Positions 831-61,600 of a stretch of DNA of 64,000 nucleotides are shown here, piece after piece. This stretch comes from Brachionus manjavacas. Taxonomy: Eukaryota > Rotifera > Eurotatoria > Ploima > Brachionidae. Location: NCBI GenBank assembly GCA_019054805.1, contig JAHQIY010000027.1, positions 124,001 to 188,000 on the forward strand. Reading direction: 5' to 3'. Each line of letters starts with the position of its first letter. Position 1 is the first letter of the stretch. Position numbers and translations under genes: made by a program. Under the pieces are notes generated by a model. It made no database searches. It was not told the DNA's origin and saw only the letters and a program-made list of their open reading frames with translations.

Positions 831-1555
831 AACTAGTTTTAAAACCAAACAAAAAAAGTTGTTTTAATTTTAAATATTTTGTTCTTGTTCTCAGTTCAAC
901 AATTAGCAATGTACAGATTCAAAATTATTATAACAATTACAAATTCAAAATTTGGACAAATTGAAGTTTGAGATCAAAATCAAAAGATCAAAATGTAAAA
1001 TGTAAATTTTTTTTTAAATAATAGAAAAAAATAATTTTTTCTAAAGCATTTACTTGACATGTTGTAGAATTTTAAAATATCCCTTTTATATCGAACTTAA
1101 AAAGGTTCTAATTTTTTAATTGATTTTAGTAAAAATTTTTAGAAAAAAATTTAAAGTTTAAAAATCTAAAATTTGCTTAAGTGGAAAAAAAAATTTTAAG
1201 TTTGAATGAAAGAATAAAAAATTTCTTAATTAACTCAACCCGAATCATTACATTAATGATTGTTTTTGTTAAAATAAATTAGAGGTCCATAATTTTGATG
1301 TTAATTTGGTAATGAAGCATTATTAGACATATGATCCATAGTAATGTTTTAGTAATTATTTCTTAAAAATTATCAAAGTCATTTAATTAATTAAGTTTTA
1401 AAAGTTTAAAAGATTTAAAAGAGTTTTATCTTAAAATTTGATCCGATTTGGACTTCTTTTTTCACTTTTTTTTTCGTTTTTCTATTTTTTTACTAAATAT
1501 TCAAAACTTAATTATTTGTTTTAATTTTAAACTCTGAAATATAACCCTAAGTTGG

Positions 1556-1879
1556 GGTTGTGAAGTTCATTTCAATTCAGAAAAAGTTAAATAAATTTTT
1601 TACTAAAAGAGATAGTTTAGTTCTGTAAAATGCTTAATTATAAGCAAATTTGCTTAATGCAGTAATAAAAGTCTGCAAATTACTCTGCAATTTTCTGCAT
1701 TTTGCACCCCAATAAAAAGTATTCCAATCAAGTGTGCAATTAAATTGCAGAGTTTTTGCAGACTTTATTTTTGGATTTAGCAAAGTTGCTTAACCATTAA
1801 GCATTTTACCGAACTAAAAAAGCTATTTAACTTTTTCTAAATTGAAAAGATCGAATTGAAATGAACTTCACAACCCCCC
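1556..1879. mobile_element. Foldback element (copy 1), 9-bp target duplication
   Basis: The two halves are inverted copies. GGTTGTGAAGTTCATTTCAA at the left pairs with TTGAAATGAACTTCACAACC at the right, with further paired blocks inward. The flanks carry the same 9 bases, CTAAGTTGG, at 1547-1555 and 1880-1888; a run of extra C sits at the right end. The core contains TCTGCAAATTACTCTGCAAT and its inverted partner. No coding capacity is seen. Size, ends, duplication length and core agree with three other elements in this window. Confidence 0.8.
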
Positions 1880-1888
1880 CTAAGTTGG

Positions 1889-13800: not shown

Positions 13801-13825
13801 ATTGATGTCCACTAAATTAAATTTA

Positions 13826-14450
13826 AATCCACTATTTTTAACTTATTCAAACTTTTTATTAAAAAATGATAACAAATTTAAGAAAAAGTACCTAAATTTT
13901 GTAATAAAAATAAAGTAATGTTCTACTTTTTGTTTTATCCAAAGTTTACGAAACATGAAGAAATTTACATTTTACAATTAGCTCACACAAAAGACGCCAA
14001 AGCTCTTAACGTGAAATCAGCGTAAATTTTAAATCTGCTTCACCTAAAGTTTCAGTGTTAAATTATCTTATTTTCTCAATTTTTCAAAACTTAATAGAAG
14101 ACTTTTCTAGCTATCAGATCCGTAAAAATATACTCATTTATTTGGCTTTGCTTTGATTATTGTTCCACTCTTGAATGCTTTTTTTCAAAAAATGCAATAA
14201 TCAAACTTGCTAAAAGTTATTATTTTTCGATTTTTAAATTATTTAAATTTAAAATTGAAGCTAATAAATTCAATGACATAAACAACTTTCAGAAAAATAT
14301 GACTGACATAATTTTCAGCATAAAACTCGTTTGAATATTATCTTTTTTTCTAACAAACACTCTCTTCTCACAATTTAGGTACTTTTTCTTAAATTTGTTA
14401 TAATTTTTTAATAAAAAGTTTGAATAAGTTAAAAATAGTAGATTTCAATT
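13826..14450. mobile_element. Inverted-repeat (MITE-like) element with 75-bp ends
   Basis: TTTTTAACTTATTCAAACTT-TTTATTAAAAAAT..AAATTTAAGAAAAAGTACCT near 13836-13905 is repeated inverted at 14374-14440. The interior of about 470 bases is AT-rich without an open frame. Target duplications are not clear, so the superfamily is unassigned. Confidence 0.65.
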
Positions 14451-14764
14451 TTATTTAGAGTTAATTAATTTTTTAATGTAAAAACCTAATAATTGAGGAA
14501 TTTTTTTAATATTTGGAAAAAAAAAAATTTTGGGTATATTACTCAAAATTTGTGGTACTCGAACTAAACTCTCTTTTTTTAACTTCTTCTTTTTGAAGAA
14601 AGTCGTTTACGCTTAGGCAAATGATTAGATGTTTTGTATACTTTTGCAGCATTTTTGCTAAGGCGTTCTAACCGATACATTTTAAAATTTTTAATTTCAA
14701 ATTTTTTCAATATAAAAAATATTTATAGGACAGCGATCAAAGGATTAAACTTCTGTATTTTTAA

Positions 14765-35588: not shown

Positions 35589-38500
35589 CTTAAGGAAATA
35601 AAAACTCTTAACATTTTTTTTTATTATTTCAATAGATTCAGTTAAATTTTTTAGTGAACAAAAATTGCTATCAAGGTATTTGGTAATTCTGAGAAATTAT
35701 TTAAATTTTTTTAGGGTTGGAAAATCTAATAAATGTTGAAAATAATCAAATATATTTTATTTGAAAGCTTTAATAACTAAATAAGAAATTGAATTTCTGT
35801 AATTTTTTTCTTTTAAAATTCATTTGTTATACATAAATTATCTGACAATAATCTTATCGTGTATTCTTGTTCGATTTTACAAAAATTTATATTTCAAATA
35901 AATGACAAATAAAGAAATTAAATCAAATTTAATTTAAGGTTTATAATATTTTTAGAAATAAGACTAGAATTTTTTTCAATTTAATAAAGACTCAAATTTT
36001 TTTAATAAAAAATTATCATTTTAAAAATAAGATGAACTAAAGCACCTTCAGTTGCCTTTTGTTTTTTGTTACCTAAAGAAATATAAATCCCAATAATTTT
36101 TGAGGCGTTGAAGTTTGGAGCTAAAAAAATTAAAGCAAAGCAAAATATTTGAAAAATTATAAAATAAATTAATAATTTTGAAAATTTTTATAATAAAAAT
36201 CACAAAAAAAGTCAAAATAACTTAAGATTTAGTACTGTTTCTATCAATATTCGATCTTTTCTCTACAGTGCTGCTAGCGTAATGCCGTGCGTTCTAGTTC
36301 AATGCATTAAACTTGTGGTTTCGGGAATAGATGCGGCACTAAACACGTGTTTTTCAATATTTCGTGACTTGGGTTTTAATGCAGCATCTAAAGTTAAGTT
36401 AGAAATAAAATTTGGGAATAATTGCGGCTTCTATAACTGAAGCTCTTAAAATAATGCAGCATCAAAAGTTGAAATTTAAAGAAAAAAATATTCAATATTT
36501 TTGAATTTTTTTGAATTTTTTTTTTATTTTTGAATTTTTTTTAACTTATAAAAACACAAATTTTTATTATTAAAAACAAATATTCTTGAAACAAAATGAG
36601 TAAAATTGAAAATATTTCAAGACAAATGACAAAAAATAGAAAAAGATACTCAATGGAGTTTAAAACTAAGGTAATAATGAAATATAAATCTTTGCAAAGT
36701 GATGAAACAAGTGAAAAAATCGAAAAACTTAAACAAGAATTAATTGAACTTGAGAAAAATTGAAATTTTGTTTATTTATTTTATAAATTAAATCGAAATC
36801 TAAAAAAAATCATAAAATTGCCTAAATCGATTTTTTTTTATCAAAAAAATTAAAAAATATTCAAATTTTGTTTTTAAAAATTTTCGAATAAAGAAGCAGC
36901 ATTTAATACAGAAATTTAATAATAAGACCGGCATTTAAATTTAGGAGCTTGGCTTTTAATGCAGGTCTTAAACCTAGGTCATGAAAAATTCAAAAACACA
37001 TGTTTAGACCATGCACTTAATTTCGAGTGCCACATGTTTAATGCTGCCTTTATTCGCACGGCATTACGGTATGATACGATGAATTCACAATATTTTACGT
37101 AAAATTACGTTAATTCACCAAATTTGACGATAAATTACGTGAAATGACAAATTCTAGAAAACGTAATTTGACGTAAAATTTCGAAAATTAACGTTTTTTT
37201 GCGTAATTTTTCGTAATTTGTCATTTGACGTCAAACACAAAATTGCCAAAATTTTTGGAAAAAACGAAAATTCCGTAAAAAAAAATTTTTTTTTTAATTT
37301 TTTTTCATTTAAAGTTTTTAAACTCAAATTTTTTTTGACCAAAATTTACGTAAAATATTGTTATTTTCGGCTAAAAAAAGTCAAATAAAGTCAAAAATGG
37401 AAATTTCAAAATAGACTGGTAAAATAATGAAAGAGAACAAATATTCTAGAACAAATTCACTTGAGAGAATGTTCAATACTATGAACGACAACTTGTGTAA
37501 ATTCATTTATTCTATTGCTTGTGTTTAACAAATTTTGTTTAAAAATGTTTAACAGTAATTTTTTAGAACAATTGTCAATAATTAAAATAAATCTGGGATT
37601 CAATTTAATAAAAATTTTTCTACAGTTTTTGCTCCAATCTTCACCACCGCAAATTATTCTTTCTTGATAAGTTATAATTTACATTTAACTCCATTTATTT
37701 CTTCTGAAATTGTGGTGTCTACCTCATCATTACTTAAAATAATTATAGCTTGAAAAAATTTTTATTTCATTAACTTTATTTATTGTTTTGGCACTCATTA
37801 TAGTTATTTGAAAATATTTTTTATTTTTTTTCGTTATAGCCTTAATTTGGCAATGTGAAATATTAGTACAAAAATTACAGTACAAAAAGTAAAAACGCTA
37901 TAATTTTTTTTCTAATTGTGTAAAAATGGTTCTGTAAACATTACAATATTGTACAAATTTTTTAGAAACGAATACCAAGCTCTGCAAAAACTCTGCAATT
38001 TATTGCATATATTAATCATATATTTTTTGATGGTGTGCATTTTACAGAAAAATGCAGAGTTTTTGCAGAGCTTGGTATTCGTTTCTAAAAAATTTGTACA
38101 ATATTGTAATGTTTACAGAACCATTTTTACACAATTAGAAAAAAAATTATAGCGTTTTTACTTTTTGTACTGTAATTTTTGTACTAATATTTCACATTGC
38201 CCCTTAATTTAATTTTAGTTATTTTGTAATCGTGATTAAGACAAAGTGTAAAGCTTTGGAATAAGTTTAATAATTTTTAGTTTTTTTTTTAATCCAAGAA
38301 GTACCTCTATGCTTTAAATTGCTTGTTGTATTTATTTCAAATTTATTCATTAAAGTATTTGTTCCCACCCTCTTTTCAAGTTTACGGTACTACAAAAGTG
38401 GCATTTTTATTTATAGCAAAACGAGTTTATGTGGCAGGTAGCATCTTCGGGGAAATTGGCTTTAAAAGCTTTTTTGGAGGAAAACAAAAAAGTTCAGATC

Positions 38501-41500: not shown

Positions 41501-44500
41501 GTCCAAAGGTTTGTTTCAATTAAACTCTTCAAATTTGCTCACTAAGGATTCGAAACTTAAAAAAAGTAAAGCTTCGGGTCCTAACTTGAGCCTTATAGTC
41601 AAAAATAATTAATTTTTTTAAATTTTGCAACAAAAAGTTGATTTTTAATTTCAGGTTTAGATTAAAAAGACAGGAAAATTTATTGTTTTTTACCTAACCA
41701 CTCACCATCTATGGCAAATAAAACTTTTGTTGTTTTTTCTTAATCAGTTAGTTTCAGCTAAATTCTTTTTTCATATTTCAAGGTGAATGATACCATTTGG
41801 ACATTCTAATGAAATTAATGACTGTAGCATTGTGAAGTTTTGTTCAAAAAGTTCAAGAAAAAAGTTCTTAATTCAAATTTTTTGATGAATGAAAAAAATT
41901 TGCACCTGTAAAATATGTAACAATGTTAAACAAAAGTTGTTAAATCAAGTAGCCTTGAAAATAAATTCTGAAAGTTTTCTTTTAATTAATCATCGACTTT
42001 TAAAATCAATCGAATTTAAGACAATTTATTTGTCTTTGTAAAAAAAGAAGTTTTATTTGCAATATTGTAAAATTTTTGTAAGTGTTTAATTTCAAATTTC
42101 GAAATTTTTTATTTCAAAACCAACTTAACATTCATTCAGTTCAAAAAAATTCCATTCAAAATATATACGAATTTAAGATTTTGAACTGAACTTTATGAAC
42201 GAAACTTCACAATGCTATGACTGTACGGTATGTTGCAAAAATTTAGAAATTAATTATTTTTTTTAATTTTGACGAAAAATTGAGTGAAATTAATTCAAAC
42301 TCTAATTTGTAGAATTAAATACACTAGACATGAAAAATTTTAAATATTTTTTATCAAAAAACTTCCTATAGAAATTAAGGACGGTAGTAGAATATTACCT
42401 CAAAAGATAATTTTACCTATAATTAAATAAAAATTTATCAAAATAAAATAAACAAATTAAACTCAATAAATATAAAATTGACAAAATCTTAATAATAAAT
42501 TAACAAAAATAATTAATTAATAATGAACCGCAAATAAGATAATTATTTTAATTATAAAATGACACTTTTTGGACTATTTAAAATTACCAAATTTTTTACC
42601 GCTTAAACAAAAATACATGGTTAACATTAACCAAAAACTTTCCAAAGAGAGTATTTTAGAAGATCCTTCGAATCAAACAGTTAATGACGCAGAAGATGAC
42701 ATGCAAGATGTCCTAGAACCACCAAAGCAAACAAGAAAAAGAGGCAAAGCTTTTACTTATTATCTTTACAAGAGGTTTGACAATTTTGACGATATAATCA
42801 ATTAGATGAATTACCGAAAAATAAAGTCGAAAGGCAGTTGAGTTAGTTTGGTATCGAATTTGATTAAAAAATGTAAATCATGCGAAATGCCGCTAAAAAA
42901 GAGAAAATATTTTTACTGTGTCAATAAATGCAAAAATATTTTTTGATTTTTTCAAAAATTTTTTTTTGGTTTTTTTATTAATTTTTTGGGAGTTTCGTTA
43001 GAAAAAAAGGCAAATGTTTTTTTTTTGTTCTATTTTTATTAAATTTATGGTAATAGAATGAATTTGCTTTAATTCAACAAGGTGCAGTTCCTAAAGCTTG
43101 GAAAAGTGCCAATATCACAATGATACCCAAGAAATCTTCTTCTACACAAGACCCGTCGTATTATCGATCAATTAGTATTACTAGCTGTCTGGGTAAACTG
43201 CTTGAACGTTCTATTTTTTCAAGATTATATGATTTTTTGGAAAAAAAATTGCTGCTAATCCAGGAACAATCTGGTCTAAGAAAACATCGAAGAACAGCAG
43301 ATTTCCTTGAATTTAGTTTTCCTTATCCAACAATTTGTCGAATCATTTAATAGAAAGAAAAAAGTATGTTGCTTATTTTTTGGAATTTCCAAAGCTTTCC
43401 ACAAGGTCTGGCATGAGGGTATAATTTACAAACTGATAAAGATAAATACACCTGCCTATTTAAATTTATTGGATTAAATCATTTCTTAACTGTAGAACAT
43501 TTAAAGTAAATATAAGTAATCACATTAGTGACGAATTCAAAATATCTGCTGGCGTTCCTCAAGAATCAGTTATTATTTAACCCTATTTATTAATGATATT
43601 CCGGAAAGAAATAAATCTAATAATGAATATTCACTTATCTTTGCAGACGATCTTGTCACTTTTTTATTTATAAAAAAATGGAAATATAGAAAGTAAGATG
43701 AATAAGTGCGTGGTTGAATTAGAACAGTGGCTTTACAAGTGGAAAATGAAGATTTTGGTTGAAAAGTTTTGCTCAATGATTTTTACTAAAAACAACAAAG
43801 AAAGTTCTATGTTTAATTTAAGGATTAATGGGAATAAAATCGAAACCTTAAAAGAAATAAAGTTCCTAGGTATTAAATTCTCTTTCAGAAACAAATATCA
43901 AAAAGTTAGAAGTAATCCAAAATTCAGCAGTTGGTTCTATACTAAAACTAAGATATGATACTCCCTGCAACATGGTACATCATGAGACATTTTTTAAAAT
44001 TAAATTACTAAGAGTCTCGAATCGGCTTTTTGAGTTGAGTGAGAGATATGTTAGAGCAGGACCGAGTCACTCTGTTCCATTAACTGCTAGACTGGTGGAA
44101 GAGTATAACAAAGGTTTCGAATCAAGAAATATCAAGTACCCAACTCAATTGTGTAATTGCTACCTTACTATTTTTTCTTTTTTTCCTGAACTATCAAATA
44201 TTCAAAATATGTATTCTGTTACTTTCTATCTAAATTTATCTAATTTTAATTTTAATATTTCTCTATTTTTTAACTTATATTATTTTTACTTATATTTTTT
44301 TTTTATTTTTTTCTTATTTTTTATTTTTTTATCTTTAATTTTTTTTAATTTTTTTATCTTTAATTTTTTCTAAAGGAACTTTAGCTCGGTACAGAAAACA
44401 AATAAATAAAATAATAATAATAAATGGAAAAATTGGAAAAAATGTGTCTAGCCCGCTAGAATGAAGGATCGTGGGTTTGCTAAAAAGTGGGGATAAAAAG

Positions 44501-47500
44501 CAAAATGAGAGATGATCTTAGAGAAAAAAACTAAAATTAAAATCAATCTTGACCTCAAAATTAATGGTAAGTTAGTTTGTGAGAAAGATCTTGGGATATA
44601 TATAAATCATGGCTTAAAATGGAACGTCCAAATACGAAACTGTACAGCAAAAGCAAACAAAATATTATCTATGATTAGGAAAGCATTTAAATTCCGAGAA
44701 AAATATAATATCAAGTTTCTTTATGCATCGTTAGTGGGACCGCACTTAGATTAGGCTATTAGAATATGGTGTCCGTATCTCGAGAACGACGTTATCGAAC
44801 TAGAAAAGGTGCAAAGAAGAGCCACAAAACTTATTTCTTAAAAACCTTGACTATGCGCAACGCTTAAAAGAACTTGGACTTAGTGATCTAAATACAAGGA
44901 GACTACGGGGAGATCTAATTCAAATGTACAAATTGACAAACAATTTAGAGAAAGTGAATTTTGTAAATGGACTAGATATCGGTTATGAATCAAGCTACAA
45001 TTTAAGAAGGCACATAAAATCAATGCATCGAGAGCAAACTATGAATTGTTTACCAAGATTTAACTTTTCTGTTAATAGGGTTGTGAACGTTTGGAACAGT
45101 CTGCCGGTGGATGTGGTCGAAGCAAGAATTTTGAACTGTTTCAAAAGTGGCTCATTTAAAATCATGAAGTATCTGCTACAGCTCATTAGAGCTTGCTTGA
45201 ATCTTATTCAAGTTTCAGATTATTTTTACTACTACTACTAATACTATTATGCAACAAGAGGCTTTCAATAAACTTAAACTACTAACAGTTTCAAATTGAC
45301 TGGTGGAAGAATATAGAGAAGGTTTTGAATCAAGATTTATCGAATATCCAACTCGATTGTGCAATTGCTACCTAACAATTTCTTCTTTTATTCCGGAATT
45401 ATCAAATATTTAAACAAGTCTAACCTCTAGCTATTTCAACTTTTTTAATATTTTTTTATGTATTTTTATTCCGAAGGAGCATTAGCTCGATACAGATTTA
45501 CAAATAAATAAATAACAAGGTTAAATCTTAATTTTATGGTAATTTTATAGTATGGATTCCTTCTAAACCTTTTTTATGAACTAAAGTTTGGAAATTATTT
45601 GATTGTTTTTTGACTTAAAAGAAGGTAAGAGGAAAAATAAAAAAACATACCATAGGATCTATAATTTCATTAACAGCAGGCTCTACAGTTACATTCATCA
45701 TTCTGCTTGCGAATCTTAAAGTTGATACCTTTGAAAATATTTAAAAAAATTTTTAATTAATTAAAAAAATAAGCTACTGTTTCTTCCATATGCCTTCCTT
45801 CGGGCCATATATTGGCAATCATTCTTGTCATACAATTACCGCCAATAGAGTCTTTTAGTAAATGTGTTAACTTGGACTGTCTGAATTGAACAAAAGGCTT
45901 TCTGGAGTCGGATAAGCCGATTACTGCCTGTTCAAGAAAAGACAACGACTTATTAATATATTGAGCTTCTTTTTGAGTTATTCCTTGAGACTTGAGCAAA
46001 AAATTATTTTTGAAAAAAAAATTTAAATATTTATTTGATACCTGAGTTTTGGCCAGTCGCTCCGAACCTGCCAAATCGACCAAGTTCAACTTAGACAAAG
46101 TGTATTTGTCACTAGATGATGAAATTGGTTTGCTCTCGACCCTAATGGTAAAAATACAATGCGATCTAGAGCTCACTTTGTTCAAAATGTGAGCTCCTAT
46201 CGATCTGTTTGTTTCACCCTTAAATACGGAATTTATTTATTTAATTAACTTCCTAGATTAAAAAAATACTTCGAATAAAAGATTCAAAGCCTCTTCTTCG
46301 GACGAACACATTTGATATGTAAGTCCTTTGACAAAAACATCGCCTCTGTCATCGTAAATCGAAAGACCTGAGCTGAACTCAGTCGCATTCGATAGTGGAA
46401 CAGGAGATAATAAATCATACAATTGCTCGTTATATATTTCTATATAACCGATTCTTTAAAAAAATTTTTTTATAATTATAAATTAAAAATTATCAAGGAT
46501 TATTAAAAAACAAAAAGAATCATTTTTTATGCTCATCTAAGCCTTTGATTACAGATTTTTTTTAATCATTACAACAATGATACAGAAAAAATGTCAACTT
46601 TTATTTTTGTTTTATGATCTGTGAAATCCAGTACAAAAAATAAAAAAAATAATTTAAAATTTTTTTTTTTAATTTTTTTTACATCTTTACTTTATTTTAA
46701 AAAAGCATGTTGAAAATTAAAAAAAAATCAATTTTTTAATAATTATCCCTATTCTATCCAAGTGGATAATGGGGAGGCACTCATCTCCTTATCAAGCGCC
46801 TTTTTGAGCAAAGGCTCCGATTTGACACAGAGGCTACTGCATCAAGAAATGTTGATATTGTAGCAATTGTTCTATTATTTTTATTGTCATTTTTCTTTTC
46901 CAATTTTTCCTATCTTTTCCTTCTTTATAAATTGTATTTTTCTTTAGGCCAGAAGTTAAGATTTAAAAAAAACATGTTCCCATAAACTAAATTTAATCAA
47001 ATTTTGTCCAGTTATTTTGTATCATCTAATATAAAATAATTGAAAAAATATAAAAAACTAGTTGTTATTAACTAAAATTTTTATTAACAGTAATAGGCCA
47101 TCTTTTCGTAAGATAAAGCAAAAAGCATATTGATACGAAAATAGAGGAAATTTAAAAAGTCAAATTTTAATGTTCTTTTAAAAATTACTTTTGATCAAAA
47201 AATCTTTAAAAAATGATCGGGGGCTCATTTTAATCTGTTTTTTTTGCTCTTTAAAATTAACTATTAAACATATATATTTATTATAAAAACATCAAAGGAC
47301 ACTCGTCATTTTTAGGCAGAGGTGTTCCAGATGGCCTATTTCTGTTAATAAAAATTTTAACAACTAGTTTTTTATATTTTTTTAATTATTAGATGATATG
47401 ATTTTTAAACGTGATTTTCATGCTTTGATTTTACAACAATTTTAAAAAGAAACTAGCCCTAAATTTTATTTTTCATTTATCTAGATACTATAACTTTGAA

Positions 47501-48724
47501 AGTTTTGGTTCACCGGTACTGCCACATCTATACTTTTTCATTCAGTTGTTAAGGTTCACATATTTGAAAGGAGTAAAACAATTGTTCATTTTAATCCAGC
47601 ATTAATTCAAAGAAGCAAAGATAAAAATAAGATTTAAATGCGCCATAACTCTGCCGTTAGCCGGTCCCAAGCCCAGGATGAGAAAAGAGGAGGGTGGTGG
47701 CAGCCACACAATGTGGTCTTCTACGAGTCTGAAGAAGAGCTGTATTACGGGTACATAGATCTACGGGTCTTTGTCCTAGTCTTGTCGTATGAGGGTGCCG
47801 CTGGCTTTGACCATCACCCAGTATAGAATCTTAACAGAGCAAGAACTTGTTTTACAGCTGACCCTCTTTGGATAGCCGTAACTTTGGAAGCGCTAAAGTT
47901 AAGGCATTCTCTCGTAAAGAGAATGTCGCTTGGTTTGTGGTTCCAAGCTAGTCTAAATAGTTGTCGAGTTCGCAGCCTTTTAGTGCTCGGATGAGTGGCG
48001 CTGTTTATGATGAACGTCCCACGTGCTTCTTAGGGGAAGACGCCGTCATAACTATGCCGTTTGCCGGTCCCAAGCCCGGATGAAAAAATAGGAGGGTGAC
48101 AAGCGATCAAGAGAAATCATTATTTTAAAATATTAAATAGATCATTAAAATTAAGAAAAAAAATATTTTTTCTTTCTTAAAATCGTTAGAAATATTTTTC
48201 CAGAATCTTATCTGCTATTAATTTTTAAGATTAAAAGTGATCAGAAAAAGTACCTGACTGTAAAAGACCTATCCTGATTATCGTGAATTTCTTTAAATAT
48301 GTGTTGAATAGTTCTGGGAATTATTCCGCGTTGTTGGTAGTTTTCAGTTGCGCCAGTCATGGAAAAAGTTTTACCAGCTCCCGTCTGTCCATAGCACATA
48401 ACTGTACCATTGTATCCGTCGAGAACACTCAGAGCAATGTCTTTGACCACTTTATCATAAACAGAATCCTGTGACACATTATGTAGTATGCCGTCGACTT
48501 TAAACGACCAGTCGTTTATTTGATTGTTGACATAAGCCTGACTGTTTGTCTTTTTTCTATTATAAATATTTACAGCCTTGAATTAAAGGTTTAAAAATCA
48601 AGAACAAAATTTTCCAAACACATACTTTTCCATCGGAGCCAAATTCGATCATATCATCAGCAAAGTTATCACATGGTCTACTACGCAAGTAAACCTTAAC
48701 TTTGGTCTGTCTAGGTCCGGGCAT
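35146..48724 (-). CDS. kif9: Kinesin family 9 (KIF9-like), complete, 12 exons
   Basis: This is a ciliary/flagellar kinesin. Exons in transcript order: 48626-48724, 48254-48549, 46270-46453, 46042-46218, 45778-45990, 45651-45728, 40818-41410, 40679-40764, 40315-40617, 35497-35588, 35348-35449 and 35146-35295. Phases agree at every junction and sum to 790 residues, the length I recall for human KIF9. Visible are the P-loop GQTGAGKT (87-94), switch I SSRSH (209-213), switch II DLAGSE (241-246), RQSKLTHLLKDSIGGNC, the KIF9-type neck and tail (YEPLSEHQLYEIENQCRRYI; VIDEEEFALINKLQDLK; CRQRL..EFDAWYNETY). An upstream in-frame ATG at 48769 would add 15 residues. Introns 2, 6 and 9 (1.8, 4.2 and 4.7 kb) hold transposons; the others are short. 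The exon 1/2 acceptor (AAAAAG) is the least certain border. Confidence 0.9.
36277..37069 (+). mobile_element. pogo-like TA element with ~100-bp ends and HTH-only ORF
   Basis: The inverted ends are CGTAATGCCGTGCG then GCATTAAAC(T/A)TGTGG and TAAACA(C/T)GTGTTTTT, paired between 36277-36390 and 36950-37069, each bordered by TA. Inside, a 55-codon frame (36596-36763) reads NRKRYSMEFKTKVIMKYKSL, the usual start of a pogo/IS3-type helix-turn-helix, then a short coiled coil and a stop. No catalytic domain is present. It sits in kif9 intron 9. Confidence 0.65.
37080..37240. repeat. Cluster of TTACGT/ACGTAA motifs
   Basis: About ten near-palindromic units (TTTTACGTAAAATTACGTTA, ATAAATTACGTGAAATGAC, AACGTAATTTGACGTAAAAT) are packed in 160 bases beside the pogo-like element. 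Some pair as inverted repeats. This is not a regular tandem array. Confidence 0.55.
37849..38201. mobile_element. Foldback element (copy 2), 9-bp target duplication
   Basis: GGCAATGTGAAATATTAGTA..AAATTACAGTACAAAAAGTA at the left is mirrored almost perfectly for about 150 bases on the right, ending TTTCACATTGCC. CCTTAATTT is duplicated at 37840-37848 and 38202-38210. The core has CTCTGCAAAAACTCTGCAAT and its inverse. The near-perfect arms imply a young insertion. It lies in kif9 intron 9. Confidence 0.9.
38323..39290 (+). pseudogene. LINE family-1 fragments (pre-RT linker and FADD box)
   Basis: The plus strand reads MFGDLLATPFSHHLNLVESE, then VSQEIRDFLKN and NLNEPITLLEITNALKK, the linker ahead of the reverse transcriptase. 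After a gap come NGEYSLLFADDLFTFYIFKE and DEQEKWLFKWKMKIYLDDS-type sequence with stops. An antiparallel LINE piece lies between the two parts (38930-39100). Confidence 0.6.
38930..39100 (-). pseudogene. LINE C-terminal fragment, another family
   Basis: The minus strand reads NRIVNKWNLLPDEVIVSKTV-NEFKNKLDTFLKLPQGVFDAL-stop. 'R.VN.WN.LP..V..A.....FK..LD' is the conserved last segment of CR1/L2-like ORF2 proteins. The trailing ACTACTACT sequence resembles the end of the element at 44480-45285. Confidence 0.6.
39300..40300. other. kif9 intron 9 remainder, no feature
   Basis: AT-rich. A short imperfect hairpin (GTACTAGTTCTTAC..ATACTAGTAC, 39814-39885) is the only structure I see. Confidence 0.4.
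40315..41410 (-). CDS. kif9: kif9 exons 7-9, coiled-coil tail
   Basis: Exon 7 begins RMMQKLDSEVKMLRQELAMH and covers the 'LTN..YEPLS' box shared by KIF9 and KIF6. A lysine/serine-rich linker follows. Exon 8 reads TPPTKNAAFEEFKAERGNEI-NRIWNENK, and exon 9 continues SSKRRQYSDLAHKINETKSL to CRQRLIQ. The introns between them are about 54 and 61 bases. Confidence 0.9.
41826..42216. mobile_element. Foldback-family relative with weaker arms
   Basis: The ends GCATTGTGAAGTTTTGTTCA and TGAACGAAACTTCACAATGC are inverted, and ATGACTGT(A) is duplicated at 41818-41826 and 42217-42225. The ends match copies 1-4, but the arms inside have largely lost pairing and the CTGCA core is not recognisable. An older or divergent member, in kif9 intron 6. 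Confidence 0.7.
42569..42960 (+). pseudogene. Probable transposase N-terminal remnant
   Basis: The frame includes VLEPPKQTRKRGKAFTYYLY, KRFDNFDDIIN (stop), then IKKCKSCEMPLKKRKYFYCV-NKCK. The K/R-rich lead-in, 'KRF.NFD...' and a Cys/Tyr-rich end resemble the zinc-finger N-terminus of MULE/FLYWCH-type transposases. The match is by general pattern only. Confidence 0.3.
43060..44430 (+). mobile_element. LINE family-1 copy, 3' half, in kif9 intron 6
   Basis: The plus strand reads QGAVPKAWKSANITMIPKKS, DPSYYRSISITSCLGKLLER, EQSGLRKHRRTADFLEF and IFADDLVTFLFIKK (catalytic box kept). It continues with FNLRINGNKIETLKEIKFLG, IKLLRVSNRLFELSERYVRA and RLVEEYNKGFESRNIKYPTQ, and ends with the tail GGAACTTTAGCTCGGTACAG-AAAACAAATAAATAAA. 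Several stops and frame changes make it dead. It lies opposite to kif9 transcription. Confidence 0.8.
44480..45285 (+). mobile_element. Second-family LINE, C-terminal part
   Basis: The pieces are INLDLKINGKLVCEKDLGIY, INHGLKWNVQIRNCTAKANK, REKYNIKFLYASLVGPHLD (stop) and [15 protein letters not shown]. They continue with LIQMYKLTNNLEKVNFVNGL, RFNFSVNRVVNVWNSLPVDV and ILNCFKSGSFKIMK. This is the CR1/L2-like ORF2 end. The tail ACTACTACTACTAATACTAT-TATGCAACAAG closes it. The related broken copy is at 59809-61460. Confidence 0.75.
45290..45515 (+). repeat. LINE family-1 3' end
   Basis: LVEEYREGFESRFIEYPTRL-type sequence (one stop upstream) is followed by the 3' UTR and the tail CCGAAGGAGCATTAGCTCGA-TACAGATTTACAAATAAATA. 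Confidence 0.7.
45651..48724 (-). CDS. kif9: kif9 motor-domain exons 1-6
   Basis: Exon 1 starts MPGPRQTKVKVYLRSRPCDN. Exon 2 carries the P-loop. Exon 3 was not obvious as an open frame: it joins in phase after a 1.8 kb intron and reads IGYIEIYNEQLYDLLSPVPL, then DVFVKGLTYQMCSSEEEAL. Exon 4 carries switch I and II. Exon 5 carries INKSLSFLEQAVIGLSDSRK, and exon 6 STLRFASRMMNVTVEPAVNE. Together they form one uninterrupted kinesin motor followed by the neck, so the catalytic core looks intact. Confidence 0.9.
46743..46860 (-). repeat. Dispersed ~105-bp repeat, copy B
   Basis: On the minus strand it reads GCAGTAGCCTCTGTGTCAAA-TCGGAGCC..TTGCTCAAAAAGG..CATTATCCACTTGGATAGAA-TAGGG. It is co-linear with 14765-14875. 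It lies in kif9 intron 2. Confidence 0.6.
47024..47400. mobile_element. Inverted-repeat (MITE-like) element with 75-bp ends
   Basis: TCATCTAATATAAAATAATT..AAAAAACTAGTTGTTATTAA..AACAGTAATAGGCCAT at the left is inverted at 47332-47398. TA lies outside both ends, which suggests a Tc1/mariner-type miniature element. It sits in kif9 intron 2 and has no coding capacity. Confidence 0.6.
47637..48105. repeat. GC-rich inserted block bounded by two copies of a CCGGTCCCAAGCCC motif
   Basis: GCCATAACTCTGCCGTTAGC-CGGTCCCAAGCCCAGGATGA (47641) and GTCATAACTATGCCGTTTGC-CGGTCCCAAGCCCGGATGAA (48048) lie about 410 bases apart in direct orientation, each followed by AGGAGGGTG. The block is far richer in GC than the kif9 intron it occupies. 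It has no reverse transcriptase motifs. It may be the 3' untranslated end of a non-LTR element inserted in tandem, or part of a satellite. The open frame at 47638-47826 is not supported. Confidence 0.55.
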
Positions 48725-50831: not shown

Positions 50832-52541
50832 CTAAATAATTGAAAAAAAATATAAACAGTTGAAAAATGTCTTATCAAAAATTAAAATTAGATTGTTTTC
50901 ATATCCTGAAATTACATTACCATTTTGCATTATTGCCAAACATTCAACCGAATAATTATGACAATTGATAGTCCTTATGCATTCGAAACTTTCTTCATGC
51001 CATATTTTAATTGTTTTATCCCGTGATCCGGATACTATATTACCGTTTTGCATTATTGCTAAACAAAGAACCCAATTAGTGTGACCTTTTAAAGTCTTTA
51101 TACATTCGAAATTGTCCTTGTCCAAAATATATATTGTATTATCCCATGATCCCAAGACAATATTACCGTTCTGCATTATTGCTAAACATTCAACCGAACT
51201 ATTGTGACAATTGATAGTCTTTAAGCATTCAAAAGTGTCCTTGCACCATATTTTTATTGTTTTATCATCTGAACTTGATACAATGTTACCATTCGGCATT
51301 ATTGCCATACAAACAACACATTCATTATGACCATATAAAGTTTTTAAACATTTAAAAGTGTCTTTGTCGAATATTTTAATTGCTTCTTTATCTGATCCCG
51401 AGACAATGTTACCGTTCTGCATTATTGTCAAACACATTTCCCCAATATTCTGACCATTTATAATCTTTAAACATTCAAAAGTGTCTTTATCAAATATTTT
51501 AATTATTTCATCGTCACAAACTGAGACAATATTGCCGTTCGGCAGGATTAATAAACAAAATATCCAATTTGTGTGCCCTTTAATGATCCTTAAGCATTCG
51601 AAATTGTTTTTATCTATTATTTCTATTGCATTGCCCAATGATCCTGACACAATGTTGCCGTTGTGCATTATTGACAAACATTCAACACACTTATTATGCT
51701 CATTTATGGTCTTTATACATTCAAAAGTGTTTTTGCACCATATTTTTAATGTTTTATCTGGTGATCCTGAAACAATATTACCACTCTGCATTATTGTCAA
51801 ACATTTTACAGAACTGTTATGCTCTTCTAAAGTTTTTAAGCATTCAAAATTGTCTTTGTCCCATATTTTTATACTTTTATCATCGGATCCAGAAACAATA
51901 TTACCAATATGCATTATTGTCAAACATTTTACACACTTTTTATGCTCATTTATAGTCTTTAAGCATTCAAAACTTTCTTCATGCCATATTTTAATTGTTT
52001 TATCCCGTGATCCGGATACTATATTACCGTTTTGCATTATTGCTAAACAAAGAACCCAATTAGTGTGACCTTTTAAAGTCTTTATACATTCGAAATTGTC
52101 CTTGTCCAAAATATATATCGTATTATCCCATGATCCCAAGACAATATTACCGTTCTGCATTATTGCTAAACATTCAACCGAACTATTGTGACAATTGATA
52201 GTCTTTAAGCATTCAAAAGTGTCCTTGCACCATATTTTTATTGTTTTATCTTTTGATCCTGAAATTATATTACCGCCATGCATTATTGATAAACATCTAA
52301 CCGAACTATTGTGACCATTTATAGTTTTTAAGCATTCTAAGGTAAATTTGTCCCATATTTTTATTGTGTTATCATCTGACCCTGACACAATATTCCCGCT
52401 TTGCATTTTAGCCAAACAAGATACATTGTCTTTATGGTAACTGTTAAATTCCTCAGCATATGTTGGATGATGTTCTCTATTAAAATTATTTTCTTTTTTT
52501 TTCCATTTTTCCCAAAGTTTCTCAATTTTTAATTCTATCAT
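50832..52541 (-). CDS. WD40-repeat protein, about 13 repeats, single exon
   Basis: The 569 residues are an N-terminal basic/acidic helix (about 1-39, KIEKLWEKWKKKENNFN) followed by about 13 units of exactly 41 residues. The unit pattern is V.CL.IM..GNIVSGS.D.TIKIW....FECLKTI..H..., and the thirteenth is cut short. This forms one or two beta-propellers for protein-protein contacts; no enzymatic domain is visible. Repeats 2-4 and 10-12 are almost identical. Repeats 8 and 9 have lost key residues (IF or II for IW). The frame stays open for some 27 codons upstream of the first ATG with no other ATG, so an upstream spliced exon is possible. The regular units and lack of introns fit a lineage-specific expanded family. 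I cannot assign an orthologue. Confidence 0.85.
   Translation of the reverse strand: MIELKIEKLWEKWKKKENNFNREHHPTYAEEFNSYHKDNVSCLAKMQSGNIVSGSDDNTIKIWDKFTLECLKTINGHNSSVRCLSIMHGGNIISGSKDKTIKIWCKDTFECLKTINCHNSSVECLAIMQNGNIVLGSWDNTIYILDKDNFECIKTLKGHTNWVLCLAIMQNGNIVSGSRDKTIKIWHEESFECLKTINEHKKCVKCLTIMHIGNIVSGSDDKSIKIWDKDNFECLKTLEEHNSSVKCLTIMQSGNIVSGSPDKTLKIWCKNTFECIKTINEHNKCVECLSIMHNGNIVSGSLGNAIEIIDKNNFECLRIIKGHTNWIFCLLILPNGNIVSVCDDEIIKIFDKDTFECLKIINGQNIGEMCLTIMQNGNIVSGSDKEAIKIFDKDTFKCLKTLYGHNECVVCMAIMPNGNIVSSSDDKTIKIWCKDTFECLKTINCHNSSVECLAIMQNGNIVLGSWDNTIYILDKDNFECIKTLKGHTNWVLCLAIMQNGNIVSGSRDKTIKIWHEESFECIRTINCHNYSVECLAIMQNGNVISGYENNLILIFDKTFFNCLYFFSII
50986..52250 (-). repeat. 123-bp tandem coding repeats with a 281-bp duplicated block
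   Basis: The plus-strand segments 50986-51266 and 51970-52250 differ at only one base that I can see (T at 51135, C at 52119). They are offset by 984 bases, exactly 8 x 123. Neighbouring units differ far more. This points to recent gene conversion or unequal exchange within the gene. Confidence 0.9.
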
Positions 52542-52599
52542 AATTGATCTATGTTTTAAAATACTTTGTATCCTCTTTTTTAATTCTAATTCTTTTCTG

Positions 52600-53225
52600 T
52601 TTCTATGGAAATTTTTTAGTCGGTTAATTTATTTATTTATTTTAAATTTTTTCTAAGTCATCAAATACTTGAATTTGAATAATAGAAATTGAGCAATTTA
52701 TGCACAAATGAATATGCACCCCCAGTAAAAACATTAATGCATATTTTATTGCGGATTTAGATAAGCTGATTCGAACACATAATTTTTTAATTTTTTGACC
52801 ACTAGTTCAGAAATATGGCATCTAAAAATTTCAAAGAGTCAAATTCGTTAAAAATTCTTAGTCATATTTCAAACAATACACTTCAATTTTCACCAAAATA
52901 CTCAAAATTGAATTATTAAAAAAAATTTTTTTTAATTTTAAATTTTCTGTTATTTTTAAAAAAATTCATTAAATACTGTAAGAGATATTTTGTGTTTGAG
53001 GTCTTGTTTGTTTTAAAGCATGGCATTGTGAATTTCTATACAAACCTTTCAAAAATTAGAAAAATAAAATTCTATTACATTGTTTAAATTAACAAAATTG
53101 AGCTTTTTAAATTTTGATGATTTACCAGCATGACAAAAAAAAAAAAAAAAAAATTAATTTTAATCCACAAGGAAATATTAATGATCAAATAAAATATCAA
53201 TATCAATACCAAATATTATCAATTT
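52600..53225. other. AT-rich upstream region of the WD40 gene
   Basis: No gene. GGCATTGTGAATTTC at 53025 looks like a single foldback-family end without its partner. Confidence 0.4.
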
Positions 53226-55643: not shown

Positions 55644-58600
55644 GTAATTTTGGCATTTATAGTTTAACAGTTTTTTTTTCCATAAAACTCTTTCTTCTAA
55701 AAAATTTCTTTTTTCTTTTGTTTGTTTCTTTTTTTTAAATTATTCTATTAATATATAATTAAAAAGCATTAATGAATCTTATTTTTCTAGCATACTATTA
55801 TTTTTATTATTTATTCAGTAAACACCGCGAGGGTGATGTAAAAAAAATAAACAAAATAAAATAAAAGTGAAGTTTTGTCTTTCTAACTGAATATAAAAGT
55901 TAGAGTCAATTGTGTTTGTCACATGAAAAATTGTAGGATTTTTTTGTTTTTCTTTGGTCATTGATCCAGAAATACAAAACTATATGGACTCAGTTATTCC
56001 ATCTTTCTTACATTTTCGATTGTATTAAGGAAATTTCTTTAATTTTTTCATTTATTTTTCTTCAGGGTCTTCTAGGTTTTCAATGCTTTCATTTTCACTT
56101 CCTAGTGTTTCGTTTAATCCATTGAGGACCGATTTCTTTTCCCCCGTTTAGTTTTGATTCTTTTAATAGACAGTCCACAAGTTATCTTGTTAATTTGTTG
56201 ACCATCAGCCTTTTCAGAAAATATAGTTTTCTTTTTAGTAGCATCATTTCATTTGTTTCCATTCCTAGGCCATGCATGAGTTTGAATTTTTTGGCTATAT
56301 TTCTAGTATATAAATTGCTTTTTTTAGTTTTGATTTAGATTTAAAAGCTTTTTAAGGATGTAATAAAAAAGTGAAATAAATTTTTGCTTTTAAAAATTGG
56401 CCGCATATTAAAGCGTCATTTATTTTGATTAAAAGTCAATAAAATTAATGTAAATTAAATGTATTAATTGTCATTAAAAAGATTAAATGTTACTTAAATG
56501 TATTAATTGTCATAGTCAAAATGGTAACTTATTTCAATGAACCATGGCTCGAATCTTACGACCCCAATAAATAATTTTATGGGGGATCGGGGGTTTTGAA
56601 GATATTCATGAGGCTTTCGACGAATAAATCGAAGCTCAAGACAACTTAAGGAACACTTTAATTGAAACTGAGGTAGAAGAAGGTAATAATGAGACTACCC
56701 TAGCAGCAAATTCCTACAATAGCGCTGTAATCCCATTTAATAATGTGGAAGCATATAATTGGTGTTGATTAAAGCCAAGGATTATTCGAGTCCTTTCCAG
56801 CTGAAGCTTGCGACATACCTTTAGGAAAATAAAGAGGAGTAGGACGACCAAAAAAAGAATTAAAATCATTAGTAATGAAATAATTGAAAATATTTTCTTA
56901 TGATTAAATTTTTTTTTTGTGACTCTTTACTTTATAACATTTAATTTTATCATGTGATAACTAATTACTTAAAATGACAACTATTACTTTTAATTTACGA
57001 TTCATACATTCAATTGACTAATTTTTATGTTGACTAATTAATATAAATAAATGACGATTTGATCTTTTTTTAGTTGACGTTTAATCAGAATAAATGACAC
57101 TTTAATATATTTTCTTAAAAATTTTATTAAAATACTGAACCAAAAATTTTTTTAGTAATTTTCCTAGCAAAATTTATGAATTTTTAATTTTCTACTGCAT
57201 GATAAATTCTGACTTTTCTATTTATTTTTCTTGAGTTTGAACAAAAATTTTTGAAATCCTTGATATCTCTTTTGTGATATTACTCTTTTTTTTTACATCA
57301 ATCCTTTCTTAATTTACATATTTTTTTAAATTTCAAAGAAACAATTTGGCTTTTCTAAAAAGATTATCAATCTTAAATATTTAAGATAAACAAAATAAAA
57401 GACTCTGCTGTTCATTAATTAAGCCGTTTTGAAAGAAATTAAATGGAAAAAAGGAATTATTTTCTTTTGTGCAAAATCAAAGAATTTTATGAATTAAAAA
57501 CTTAATTGAAAAAATATTTAAATTAAATTTTGAGCTAACTTATCAAATTTTCAGAATTTGCGTTTAATTAGTTTCGCTTGTTATTTATTTTATTTTGACT
57601 TAAACTTAAGCTAAAAAAAAGAAAAAAGATCGTTTATACAAATAAATGAGTTAGGATTTTTTTTAAATTCAAGTCGAAACTTTGAGTTTTAAAAAAACCT
57701 CTTTTACTTGAATTAAGGCTTTTTTGAGATTCGGTCGCCAAAAATATTACTTATTTTATTTTTCAAATTTTTTTCTGCAAACTAAAATTAAAATTTTTCA
57801 ATATTTAAAAAAAAAATTTTTTGAAACATTTTTTGTTTAGATAACCTTTATTTACCAATATATTGGATTTTTTTAAATTTAATTAACATTGATTTGTTCC
57901 GATTTGTTCCGATTTGTTCCGATTTGTTCCGATTATTTATCTATTATTTTACTAGAATTTTACTAAAATTTTGGTAAATTTGGTAAAAAGATGGAAGCTG
58001 GTCAAAATACTAAAATTTATGGCATTGTGAATTTTGAAGCAAAAAACAAAAACAATAATTTTAAAATGAAATAACTTTTTTACTAAAAGTCTAAAAATAG
58101 TTCTGCAAAATGTTTCAGCCGGTACAAACTTTGTACCACCCAAATTTAGTCTCTGCAATAACTCTGCAATTTAATTTTAATGATTTTCTAATACTTTTAG
58201 TGCTTTGCAAACTTGCAGAGTTTATGCAGAGACTAAATTTGGGTGGTACAAAGTTTGTACCAGCTGATACATTTTGCAGAACTATTTTTAGACTTTTAGT
58301 AAAAAAGTTATTTCATTTTTAGATTATTGTTTTTGTTTTTTGCTTCAAAATTCACAATGCCAAAATTTATAGTATTAGTAGTAGTAGTATCTGCAGTATA
58401 GATATTTCTATCTACATTAACGCTCATAAGCGTTTAGCCTTATAAAACTACAGGCGAACCTCGTTATAACGATTCGCTCCGTTCCAAAAAAACGCGTTCG
58501 TTATATTGTTGAAAAATTGAATTTTATTTAAAGAGAAAAAAATTTATTGATAATGAAAACAAAGGTTTTGTGAAGTTCAGTACAAAAGAACAGAACAAAG

Positions 58601-61600
58601 TATTAAAAAATTAATAACTTTTTATCTAAAAGTTTAAAATAAATTCTGTATATCCAGCATGGTGCAACATTCAAAGTTGCATCAACTGTAAAAGTCTGCT
58701 AATGGTGTGCAGAATCTCTGCAAATTGCACCACGCTCGATTATATTGAAATTAAATTTCTGCATAACTCTGCAAATTTAGCAGGCTTTGATATTTGATGC
58801 AACTTTGAAAGTTGCACTATATTGCATTTACAGAACTAAGTTTAAACCTTTAGAAAAAAAGTTATTCAATTTTTTTTACATTTTTTCTGTTCTTTTTTTC
58901 ATTTTGTACTGAATTTCACAAAACCGAAAACAAAAAATTAATTGGATTTTAAAAAAGTTGATATTTTTGATTGCTTAGGTTCAGACTTGTTTTTAAGTCA
59001 AATTTAAGTCATGACTTTGACTTAAATTTTTGTGACTTAGACTTAAAAGTTAAAACTTTTAAAACTGTGAGTTATAAACTAGTCTGCTTAAGTTGGACTC
59101 TATTGCCGATTTCAAATTCGACGAGCTTTTTCAATAAAAAACGATTATCATTGTCATCTGCTAGTAAAAAATCTTTTTGTTTTTGTAACATTTCCAAAAA
59201 TTCTGCTTTCGAAATAATTTGCTTAGGTTCGTCTTCTTATTTTAAAGCTTGCTGTTGTATATCATGACCAGACAATGATAAATTTGGATGTGATTTTGCA
59301 TCGTTAAACCACATATCTATTGCGTCTTCTAAATCTTGATATTTTCTTTTTCTAATTCGCTTACTATCCGGTTGAACGATACTGCTTTGATAATTTTCTA
59401 CAATTTTTTCTTTATTTGATAAAATTGTCGAGTTTGAAAGGCCGAATTCTTGCGCGATTGATGATGTAGAATTTAGATCTTTACTCTTATTGATTATCGC
59501 AATTTTAGTATTTATTTATTTGTTTTCTGTAACGAGCTAAAGCTCCTTCAGAATAAATAAAAAATAAAATAAAAAAATAAAATAAAAATAAAATTAAAGT
59601 TAATAAAAATAGATAAAAAAAAAGAATCAAAATAGAGTAAATAAGCTAAAAAAAATTAAAGTTGAAAAGACATAAATTGGAAAAGATTGTTACATGTGGC
59701 ACATGTTTAAATAGTTCAAGTTTCAGGAAAAAAAGAAGAAATAGTAAGGTAGTATAGATATCAATTTTTCTTTTTTCTGCTTGACTATTCATTGTTTGAT
59801 TGTTCATTTTATTTGATTTGATTTATTTCTCGGACCAATCTATTATCATGTGGTCTTCTTAGGCTTTTTACTCCACAAGCGAAATTGATACCATTTGTTA
59901 ACGATACTTTTTCAAAACCTTTTAAAATTATGTATATTTGAATTAAGTCTCTCTTTAAACGACGATTTTCAAGTTTTATTGGATTTAAGTATTTCCATCT
60001 GTCTTCATGAGACTTGGTTCTGGTATAATCAATCAGTTTTGTCGCTCTTCTTTGCAATTTTTCAACAATTAAAATGTCTTTTTTTGGGGGTGTATCTTTT
60101 CATAGCATGTAATGTTTTATAGCATCTGAAATTATTTTCATAGCATTTTTTTCATAGCACAAATTAAAAAAAAAATAAAAATAATTGATTGAGTAAATAA
60201 TACATTTTATTGATATTTTATTGATAAATTAAATGATTATAAATGATTAATTATAGTTTATTGAATTAATTTAATTGATTGTAACTAAGCTGATATTTTT
60301 TAAATATCCCAAGCAATCATAAATAAATAAATAACAATAATAAGCATATTTTTGATAGCCAGGAACAAAATGGAAAATACGTTTGTCGTACTTGACTTGG
60401 TTCTCATCGCGAGCAAATTCTTTTCCACTTTTAATTAAAGTGATTAAATTCTCTGTATTTGATTGCTCTTTTCGGAGTTTCTCAACTAACGAATTAATAG
60501 TTAAATGTTTTTTTTCTTAAGAGCTAAACGCACCATGCCAAGCTTCAACCGTATTATTGGTACGAGGCAAGTCGCTTGATACTCTTTTATAAAGATTCCA
60601 CGTTGGGATTGGGTATCTTGCATTGAAATTTATGGTGCCTATATAATTCTTCTCAACATACTTTATTAAAGGTTTTAAAGAAGAGTGAAGACAGGACTTT
60701 AAAATTTTTATAGCAAACTTAATATCTGATTCCGGTACATAAGCTAAAGACTTTAAGACAAAAAAATCAGCTTTAAATTTACGATCATAAAATTTTTCAA
60801 GTAGACCAAGTTTGACTAATCTTTTCCATAAGTTTTGTGCTAAATGAAAAAAGCAACCATAAATGTGAGTTTGATTATCAAAAAACTATATTTGTGGCAT
60901 TAAATACGGCTTTTTCTAAATCAATATTTATTGACTTAGGGTCGCTACTAAGAAATCCTTTTAAAATCCTGAAAAATTTTAAATAAGTTGTCTGTTGTCA
61001 ATTTATTTATTTGTTTTAATTTATAATTAATTGCTATGAAAAAAAGTGCTATGAAATTTTCGACAAATGCTATGAAAATTTATTTGTCTGCTATGAAAAA
61101 TGCTATGAAACATTACACCGCCCTTTTTTTATATACGGACTCCAGGTTTCTAATGCATACTCCAGGTGGGGCCTCACAAGTGATGTTTAGAGAACTCTTA
61201 GTGATTCTCGGCCGAAAGAATTTCAAATTTGACCGAGTATTCGGTTAGCTTTCATAGCTGCTACAGTACATTGTTTATTCCATTTCAAATCATTTGTAAT
61301 AAAAACACCCAAATCCTTTTCTTCTGTTATCTCCTCTAGAAAATGAGATATATTTTGTTTTGATAATAAGTATTTGGCTCTTTCTTTTCTCTTTCCTAGA
61401 AACATTGATTTACGTTTGTTCAGGTTTAGATTTGTTGACCGATTTTCTGTCCATTCCATTAGGAGATCGAGGTCTCTCTGAAGTTCTAATGATCCTACGT
61501 TGGGGAATTCGGAGAGACAAATTTATTATAAGTCATCAGCATATCCAAGACAGAAACTGTTGTAGCTCTCAGAGAGATCATTTTGCTTTTTTTCACTAAA

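Follow-up and report, generated by a model that had tools for sequence, protein, structure and literature searches.

Hairpin MITEs of a rotifer genome and the likely copying of their arms onto each other

Arms that pair within a copy and diverge between copies pose a question about how an inverted repeat is maintained. Several short elements of this kind lie in a 64,000-nucleotide stretch of Brachionus manjavacas DNA, hereafter the window (bases 124001-188000 of contig C27, in a genome of 114,169,980 bases and 61 contigs; GC content of the window, 28%). A first-pass annotation asked whether each copy restores its own palindrome or was made from a different master. The puzzle is real, and its answer is likely to be arm-to-arm copying. 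We put a probability of about 0.85 on a model in which the elements are MITE hairpins, presumably moved in trans, whose arms are recurrently copied onto each other in place by template switching or gene conversion.

The window elements and their subfamilies

The window contains four hairpin elements and a weaker relative (Table 1). Each of the four is flanked by exact 9-bp repeats, as had been annotated; the chance rate of such a match at the element spacing is 0.00013 in the window. Two of the four rank first and second among the inverted repeats of the window, with arms of 167 nt (94% complementary) and 153 nt (99% complementary). The folding energies of the four elements range from -130 to -238 kcal/mol, compared with means of -50 to -59 kcal/mol for shuffled sequence (20 shuffles each). 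For these four, folding and inverted-repeat rank exclude chance AT-rich pairing, the alternative that had been named at the outset.

Two further family traits proposed for the window stand in part. The element at 41826-42216 folds beyond shuffled sequence (-89 versus -54 kcal/mol), but its ends are AG..CT, where most MITE copies have GG..CC, and its duplication is 8 bp long. The loop-proximal pair of CTCTGCAA words is found near the loop at 37980/37991, 58151/58162 and 1671/1683 (the 1671 word being GTCTGCAA), but is degenerate in the 58564-58925 element. The 1556-1879 element has four additional C at its right end.

Table 1. Hairpin elements of the window with their target site duplications and loop-proximal words (window coordinates)
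Feature	Coordinates	Strand	Details
MITE copy, diverged member	1556..1879	.	self-complement 70.8%
Target site duplication CTAAGTTGG flanking 1556-1879	left 1547..1555, right 1880-1888	.	exact 9 bp
MITE copy, subfamily e37849	37849..38201, 353 bp	.	arms 37849-38001 and 38049-38201, loop 38002-38048
Target site duplication CCTTAATTT flanking 37849-38201	left 37840..37848, right 38202..38210	.	exact 9 bp
Loop-proximal CTCTGCAA pair	37980..37998	+	mirror word TTGCAGAG at 38063
Weaker relative	41826..42216, 391 bp	.	ends AGCATTGTGAAG..CTTCACAATGCT (AG..CT), self-complement 61%
Target site duplication ATGACTGT of weaker relative	left 41818..41825, right 42217-42224	.	8 bp
MITE copy, subfamily e58021	58021..58361, 341 bp	.
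Target site duplication AAAATTTAT flanking 58021-58361	left 58012..58020, right 58362-58370	.	exact 9 bp
MITE copy, subfamily e58564	58564..58925, 362 bp	.	consensus arms about 85% paired
Target site duplication GAAAACAAA flanking 58564-58925	left 58555..58563, right 58926-58934	.	exact 9 bp

Elsewhere in the window, 751-911 and 2325-2518 are decayed 58021-type relatives (about 71-72% identity). Further inverted repeats lie at 47035-47390 and 13801-14469 (arms of 33 nt, 97% complementary, and 101 nt, 90% complementary, respectively), with no obvious direct flank repeat seen at either. An Rfam RAGATH-11 match occupies 47908-48027 on the plus strand (108.2 bits against a gathering score of 79.4; the family is listed as an sRNA gene), and a 598-residue open frame with WD40-like repeats, as judged by eye, runs from 50832 to 52628 on the minus strand within 123-bp tandem DNA units.

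We searched the genome with each element and scored the best 40 places per search, from 556, 1057, 726 and 788 first-look candidates. The scored copies are 93-100% (37849 type), 96-100% (58021 type) and 94-100% (58564 type) identical to the respective window copy. The best full-length relative of the 1556 copy is 89% identical, with one partial match of 252 bases at 93%; 39 relatives at 85-93% are found among its best 40 scored places. The suggestion of different masters is borne out to this extent: three window elements belong to homogeneous subfamilies of their own, and the 1556 element belongs, as a diverged copy, to a further group. One relative of the 1556 type, at positions 1127-1483 of locus L021 (357 bp), adjoins a Merlin transposase fragment.

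Ends of the 37849 type number 150 genome-wide with at most one mismatch, those of the 58021 type 144 with at most two, and a broad end pattern has 487 exact matches, mostly of the 58564 type in the part listed; the reversed-pattern control gave 0 for each. At two ends per copy, the 37849 and 58021 types comprise at most about 70-75 copies each, and some of their listed ends have no partner end. The elements are non-autonomous TIR DNA transposons of the MITE kind, nearly all arm and divided into several subfamilies: they are 324-362 bp long and non-coding, with inverted-repeat ends, 8- or 9-bp duplications and many similar copies. This is an ordinary kind of transposon, and arm-to-arm copying is a known mutational process, of which these copies are an unusually well-resolved record.

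Over the aligned half, the two arms of an element are 78-92% identical. Between subfamilies, arm identity falls to about 51-66%, except in the close pair L021/1556, in an alignment of the elements other than 41826; the arms do differ between elements, as had been noted, in the manner of diverged relatives. Of the 61 arm columns at which the e37849 and e58021 consensuses differ, 47 are changed jointly in both arms; in three other element pairs the fractions are lower, at 45/86, 37/76 and 50/79. Several blocks are largely conserved across subfamilies, namely the TGTGAA end, a ATAACTTTTT..CTAA block, TTCTGTAA and the loop-proximal TCTGCAA pair; these are candidate transposase contact sites.

Mirrored changes, tracts and inverted flanks

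To follow the arms at the level of single copies, we aligned the copies of each subfamily, took the majority sequence and paired the arm positions. If the two arms mutated independently, few pairs would be altered on both sides, and the two alterations would not be expected to correspond. In the 37849 type (39 copies), 60 of 63 double-changed cells are mirrored, against 158 one-sided cells; the 58021 type (40 copies) has 27 mirrored among 28, with 139 one-sided, and the 58564 type (28 copies) has 4 among 5, with 131 one-sided. When partners were shuffled among copies (1000 shuffles), the means for the three types were 8.56, 6.66 and 0.73 and the maxima 19, 13 and 4, and a control in which the partner was displaced by 1 to 5 columns left 0 to 8 double changes, mirrored or not. 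The excess over chance is thus clear in e37849 and e58021 and weak in e58564, where the observed count equals the shuffle maximum, so that this subfamily alone proves little. The first 69 copies gave the same picture.

The 91 mirrored cells of the three subfamilies count related sequences rather than events, and private changes therefore weigh more. Distinct mirrored mutations, counted from the table of changes, number 30, 12 and 4 in the 37849, 58021 and 58564 types, and those confined to a single copy number 12, 3 and 0, against expectations of 0.147, 0.041 and 0.157 (in total, 15 against about 0.35). Copying is not universal, since one-sided cells outnumber mirrored ones in every subfamily. 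Deletions occur in both forms: one 37849-type copy (L128) has matching 8-bp deletions in its two arms, and in six others a deletion affects one arm only, with a length of 14 bp in four and 8 bp in two. The 14-bp deletion, in L127, L130, L131 and L133, lies between short direct repeats and occupies one arm in three of the four copies and the opposite arm in the fourth, which could reflect arm swapping or independent slips.

The subfamilies differ in the quality of their hairpins. The 58564-type consensus has 25 of 168 arm pairs mismatched, and in the 37849 and 58021 consensuses the first mismatch does not come before pair 139. The poorer-armed subfamily has fewer mirrored changes, and this contrast between mirrored and one-sided cells across the three subfamilies fits hairpin-dependent copying. 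The retained mismatches and the few mirrored cells of the 58564 type also speak against the idea that the hairpin is necessarily rebuilt each time the element transposes.

Partial tracts are visible in the 58021 type. A pattern of arm differences at sites 40, 42, 94, 100 and 168 is common to five of its copies, or four insertions given that L085 and L151 are duplicates. Five relatives of this sublineage (L075, L077, L138, L155 and L156) are mirrored at only a subset of the sites. The window copy differs from the sublineage at site 168, and its arms have exchanged their states at the outer sites 40 and 42 relative to the inner sites 94 and 100. This single case looks as it would after inversion of the inner segment, which resembles a known outcome of template switching (PMC8604942).

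In two copies the inverted repeat extends beyond the element. In five copies (L079, L081, L082, L145 and L147), site 5 is altered but its partner in the other arm is not. A sixth, L083 (C19:397761-398101), shares their other changes, carries in addition the mirror of the site-5 change at site 337, and has an exact inverted flank of 17 bp in place of its target duplication. The simplest reading is a single tract, copied from the left arm, that covers the outer right arm and continues for another 17 bp; this is the one case in which the direction of copying can be read, because sampled relatives show the likely prior state. L150 (C2:323935-324275) likewise has no target duplication, with an exact inverted flank of 15 bp, and four differences between its arms persist, the outermost at site 54, so that the tract, if real, was limited to the outer part. 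At site 110, L083 itself has a change that is private and limited to one arm, and neither copy was therefore copied whole. The inverted flank runs of the other 107 of 109 copies are at most 4 bp, in a scan that misplaced the ends of several copies by a few bases; with the ends set otherwise, L083 and L150 are again the only copies to reach at least 6. Among 11,772 flank pairs drawn from different copies, inverted runs do not exceed 10, except for two of 24 that presumably reflect the duplicated-locus pair L085/L151. A third inverted flank, of 12 bp as judged by eye, is found at L167, outside the sample. The 609-bp inverted extension of L058, which is probably an insertion inside another hairpin, was not counted as conversion.

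The proposal that each copy restores its own palindrome thus gains support from mirrored substitutions, the L128 deletion, partial tracts and two inverted flanks, with the proviso that many one-arm differences persist. In our model, a cut-and-paste transposase acting in trans presumably moves the elements and makes their 8- or 9-bp duplications. A growing strand that encounters the hairpin during DNA synthesis or repair may switch to the opposite arm, or the arms may undergo gene conversion, and a mutation in one arm would then be written into the other or erased. Such copying would take place at the resident copy, in place, and would work best on near-perfect hairpins; an occasional tract running 12 to 17 bp beyond the element would put the inverted opposite flank in place of one target duplication. 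Where a donor may have lain outside the sample (40 copies read of at most about 70-75 in each of two subfamilies), copying within a copy and copying between genomic copies cannot be told apart.

An alternative we consider unlikely is that arm copying is part of transposition, for instance gap repair after excision, rather than of ordinary replication. It is compatible with the mirrored changes common to several copies. The mismatches of the e58564 consensus, however, together with e58021 sublineage arm differences that persist unchanged across several insertions, make obligatory hairpin rebuilding unlikely, and the inverted flanks are events at resident copies, although gap repair there is conceivable. 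A stronger version, in which excision or insertion gap repair repeatedly rewrites arm from arm as a built-in part of the life cycle of the element, seems to us more doubtful still; if true, the hairpin would be self-correcting, and new subfamilies would arise from mutations written into both arms at once.

We regard an assembly artefact as very improbable. Near-identical arms do let reads map to the wrong arm, and short-read polishing or hairpin reads could in this way have made arms alike, but many one-arm differences survive, mirrored changes recur at different loci, and the inverted flanks are sequence outside the repeat. Pure descent from different masters, with a perfect hairpin at the origin of each subfamily and mutation without arm copying thereafter, accommodates the three homogeneous subfamilies and the near-perfect arms of many copies. 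It predicts almost no mirrored substitutions, in conflict with the mirrored cells and private mirrored changes counted above, and leaves the inverted flanks and the both-arm subfamily changes unexplained; we rate it highly improbable. Least probable of all is selection for the hairpin (as double-stranded RNA or transposase substrate, for example) fixing compensatory second mutations, which would suit the conserved loop-proximal words and arm blocks but not single-copy mirrored changes that, at a few percent divergence, far exceed independent hits (12 versus 0.147 in the 37849 type), nor inverted flanks beyond the element.

Target duplications and the class of transposase

Target duplications were read in 40, 40 and 29 copies of the 37849, 58021 and 58564 types, window copies included, nearly all of them being among the 40 best-matching places for the respective window copy. 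Of these 109 copies, 50 carry an exact duplication of 8 bp, 47 one of 9 bp and 2 one of 7 bp, and the 9-bp duplication put forward as a family rule does not hold genome-wide. In the 37849 type, 29 are of 8 bp, 24 of them called by script and five read across an indel by eye; a further 9 are of 9 bp and 1 is of 7 bp. Allowing small end shifts, the corresponding numbers are 9, 27 and 1 for the 58021 type and 12, 11 and 0 for the 58564 type. The enzyme yields 8 and 9 bp about equally overall, with a balance that varies by subfamily.

An exact duplication of 7-9 bp is missing from 1, 3 and 6 copies of the 37849, 58021 and 58564 types, respectively. By eye, L144, L093 and L161 look like 9-bp repeats that contain a single mismatch; two others are the copies with inverted flanks, and L058, L091, L105, L159 and L160 show no exact repeat. 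L127, L130, L131, L133 and L062 initially appeared to be duplication-less and were rejected as such, having 8-bp duplications by eye once an internal indel is allowed. The L085 and L151 loci are duplicated and do not represent separate insertions. An absent target duplication may stem from arm copying rather than decay.

The 9-bp duplications had been taken to suggest a MULE-like enzyme. As stated, that argument lacks support: the duplications measure 8 or 9 bp, transposase domains of the Merlin and the MULE class are both common in the genome, and the MITE ends are somewhat more Merlin-like. We find 60 matches to PF12762 (Merlin, DDE_Tnp_IS1595) and at least 150 to PF10551 (MULE). Merlin elements (IS1016/IS1595-related) and their non-autonomous derivatives are described with a terminal 5'-GG and target duplications of 8 or 9 bp (PMC8101967); here, 97 of 109 copies have exact duplications of 8 or 9 bp, in addition to the prevailing GG..CC ends. 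Animal Mutator-like elements share the duplication length: Muta1, a MULE of Aedes aegypti, is reported with 8 or 9 bp (PMC5225508), and the MITE duplications also fall within the 8-10 bp attributed to Mutator-type elements.

We read 15 of the 60 Merlin loci with 1.5-kb flanks, found no TTGTGAA-type ends at these 15, and obtained ends for seven, all of which carry 8-bp duplications. The first 8 bases are identical at both ends in 6 of these 7 Merlin loci, as in the MITEs, and in 0 of 8 local MULE loci, whose duplications are of 8 or 9 bp; most of the compared ends come from a scan that required 17 or more matches in 24 bases, a condition that biases both classes towards similar ends. Among the flanks of 20 of 150 scored PF10551 matches, and in longer stretches at four loci of two families, no MULE lies between paired TTGTGAA-type ends. 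One locus (L029) has a single TTGTGAA-type word outside its own MULE ends, and the two MULE families read out to their ends were rejected as partners, their ends not matching those of the MITEs. Alignment scores of the MITE ends against Merlin and MULE ends gave a clear match to neither.

The MITE ends, including those of a 520-bp relative without long arms, are alike from base 1, which leans to Merlin, though in long hairpins arm copying could yield the same likeness; the mixture of 8- and 9-bp duplications leans to MULE. On balance, Merlin is slightly favoured over MULE: we give it roughly even odds, hold a MULE to be possible but rather doubtful, and think a class other than these two unlikely. 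A Merlin transposase fragment (C27:122409-122624) and a 520-bp-type MITE with GGCATTGTGAA ends (C27:123165-123694) lie just left of the window.

The annotation reported no attached enzyme, which is correct as far as the transposase loci and genome-wide ends were searched: no autonomous partner was found in a scan of the transposase loci for MITE ends or among genome-wide end patterns (487, 108, 150 and 144 matches, about the first 100 of each inspected for pairing). Among the ends listed, none of the pairs more than 700 bp apart looks like an intact autonomous element. The 714-bp pair is a nested copy (L050, C12:1181101-1181814), in which a 37849-type element with the 8-bp duplication ATAAATTG sits in the loop region of another copy of its subfamily. 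The 763-bp pair (L115), scanned for ends only, has no visible target duplication, the 1,085-bp pair (L167) contains a LINE-like insert by eye, the 1,314-bp pair (L122) seems to hold another insertion, and the 5,689-bp pair (L166) is a MITE split by a CENP-B-domain piece and a LINE. A search with the 520-bp relative returned elements of that size alone among its best 40 scored places.

Relation to known inverted-repeat systems

Hairpin MITEs are easily taken as static, with pairing that merely decays after insertion. The copies described here are natural replicates of a template-switching assay, in which mutation and arm transfer can be counted and tract ends are visible. They also imply that mirrored ("compensatory") changes in transposon hairpins are, by themselves, no evidence of a selected RNA structure.

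We found no report of mirrored arm conversion in MITEs among the titles and abstract openings of the matches listed in one literature collection. The process itself has precedents. The arms of inverted repeats are reported to co-evolve within a locus and to diverge between species (PMC1803023), and template switching is described as perfecting arms and as able to invert the spacer (PMC8604942; PMC8794818). In the excerpts cited, the homogenised inverted repeats (short ones of yeast, intergenic ones of Caenorhabditis, and RNA-gene hairpins) occupy intergenic regions of gene pairs, coding genes and RNA genes. The MITEs differ in offering about a hundred dispersed transposon copies as replicates, with tracts that enter the flanks.

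Among foldback transposons, Tm1 of Meloidogyne, a Mutator/Foldback family, includes MITE-like foldback elements whose duplications are 8-10 bp long (PMC3169594); tandem repeats in its arms and asymmetric end motifs distinguish it from the MITEs. Galileo and Tetris of Drosophila have long inverted repeats for which exchange among copies has been proposed (PMC3573991; PMC4079207). Galileo, whose target duplications are 7 bp long, has arms that contain tandem repeats, and the accounts cited propose exchange between copies rather than mirrored copying inside a single copy.
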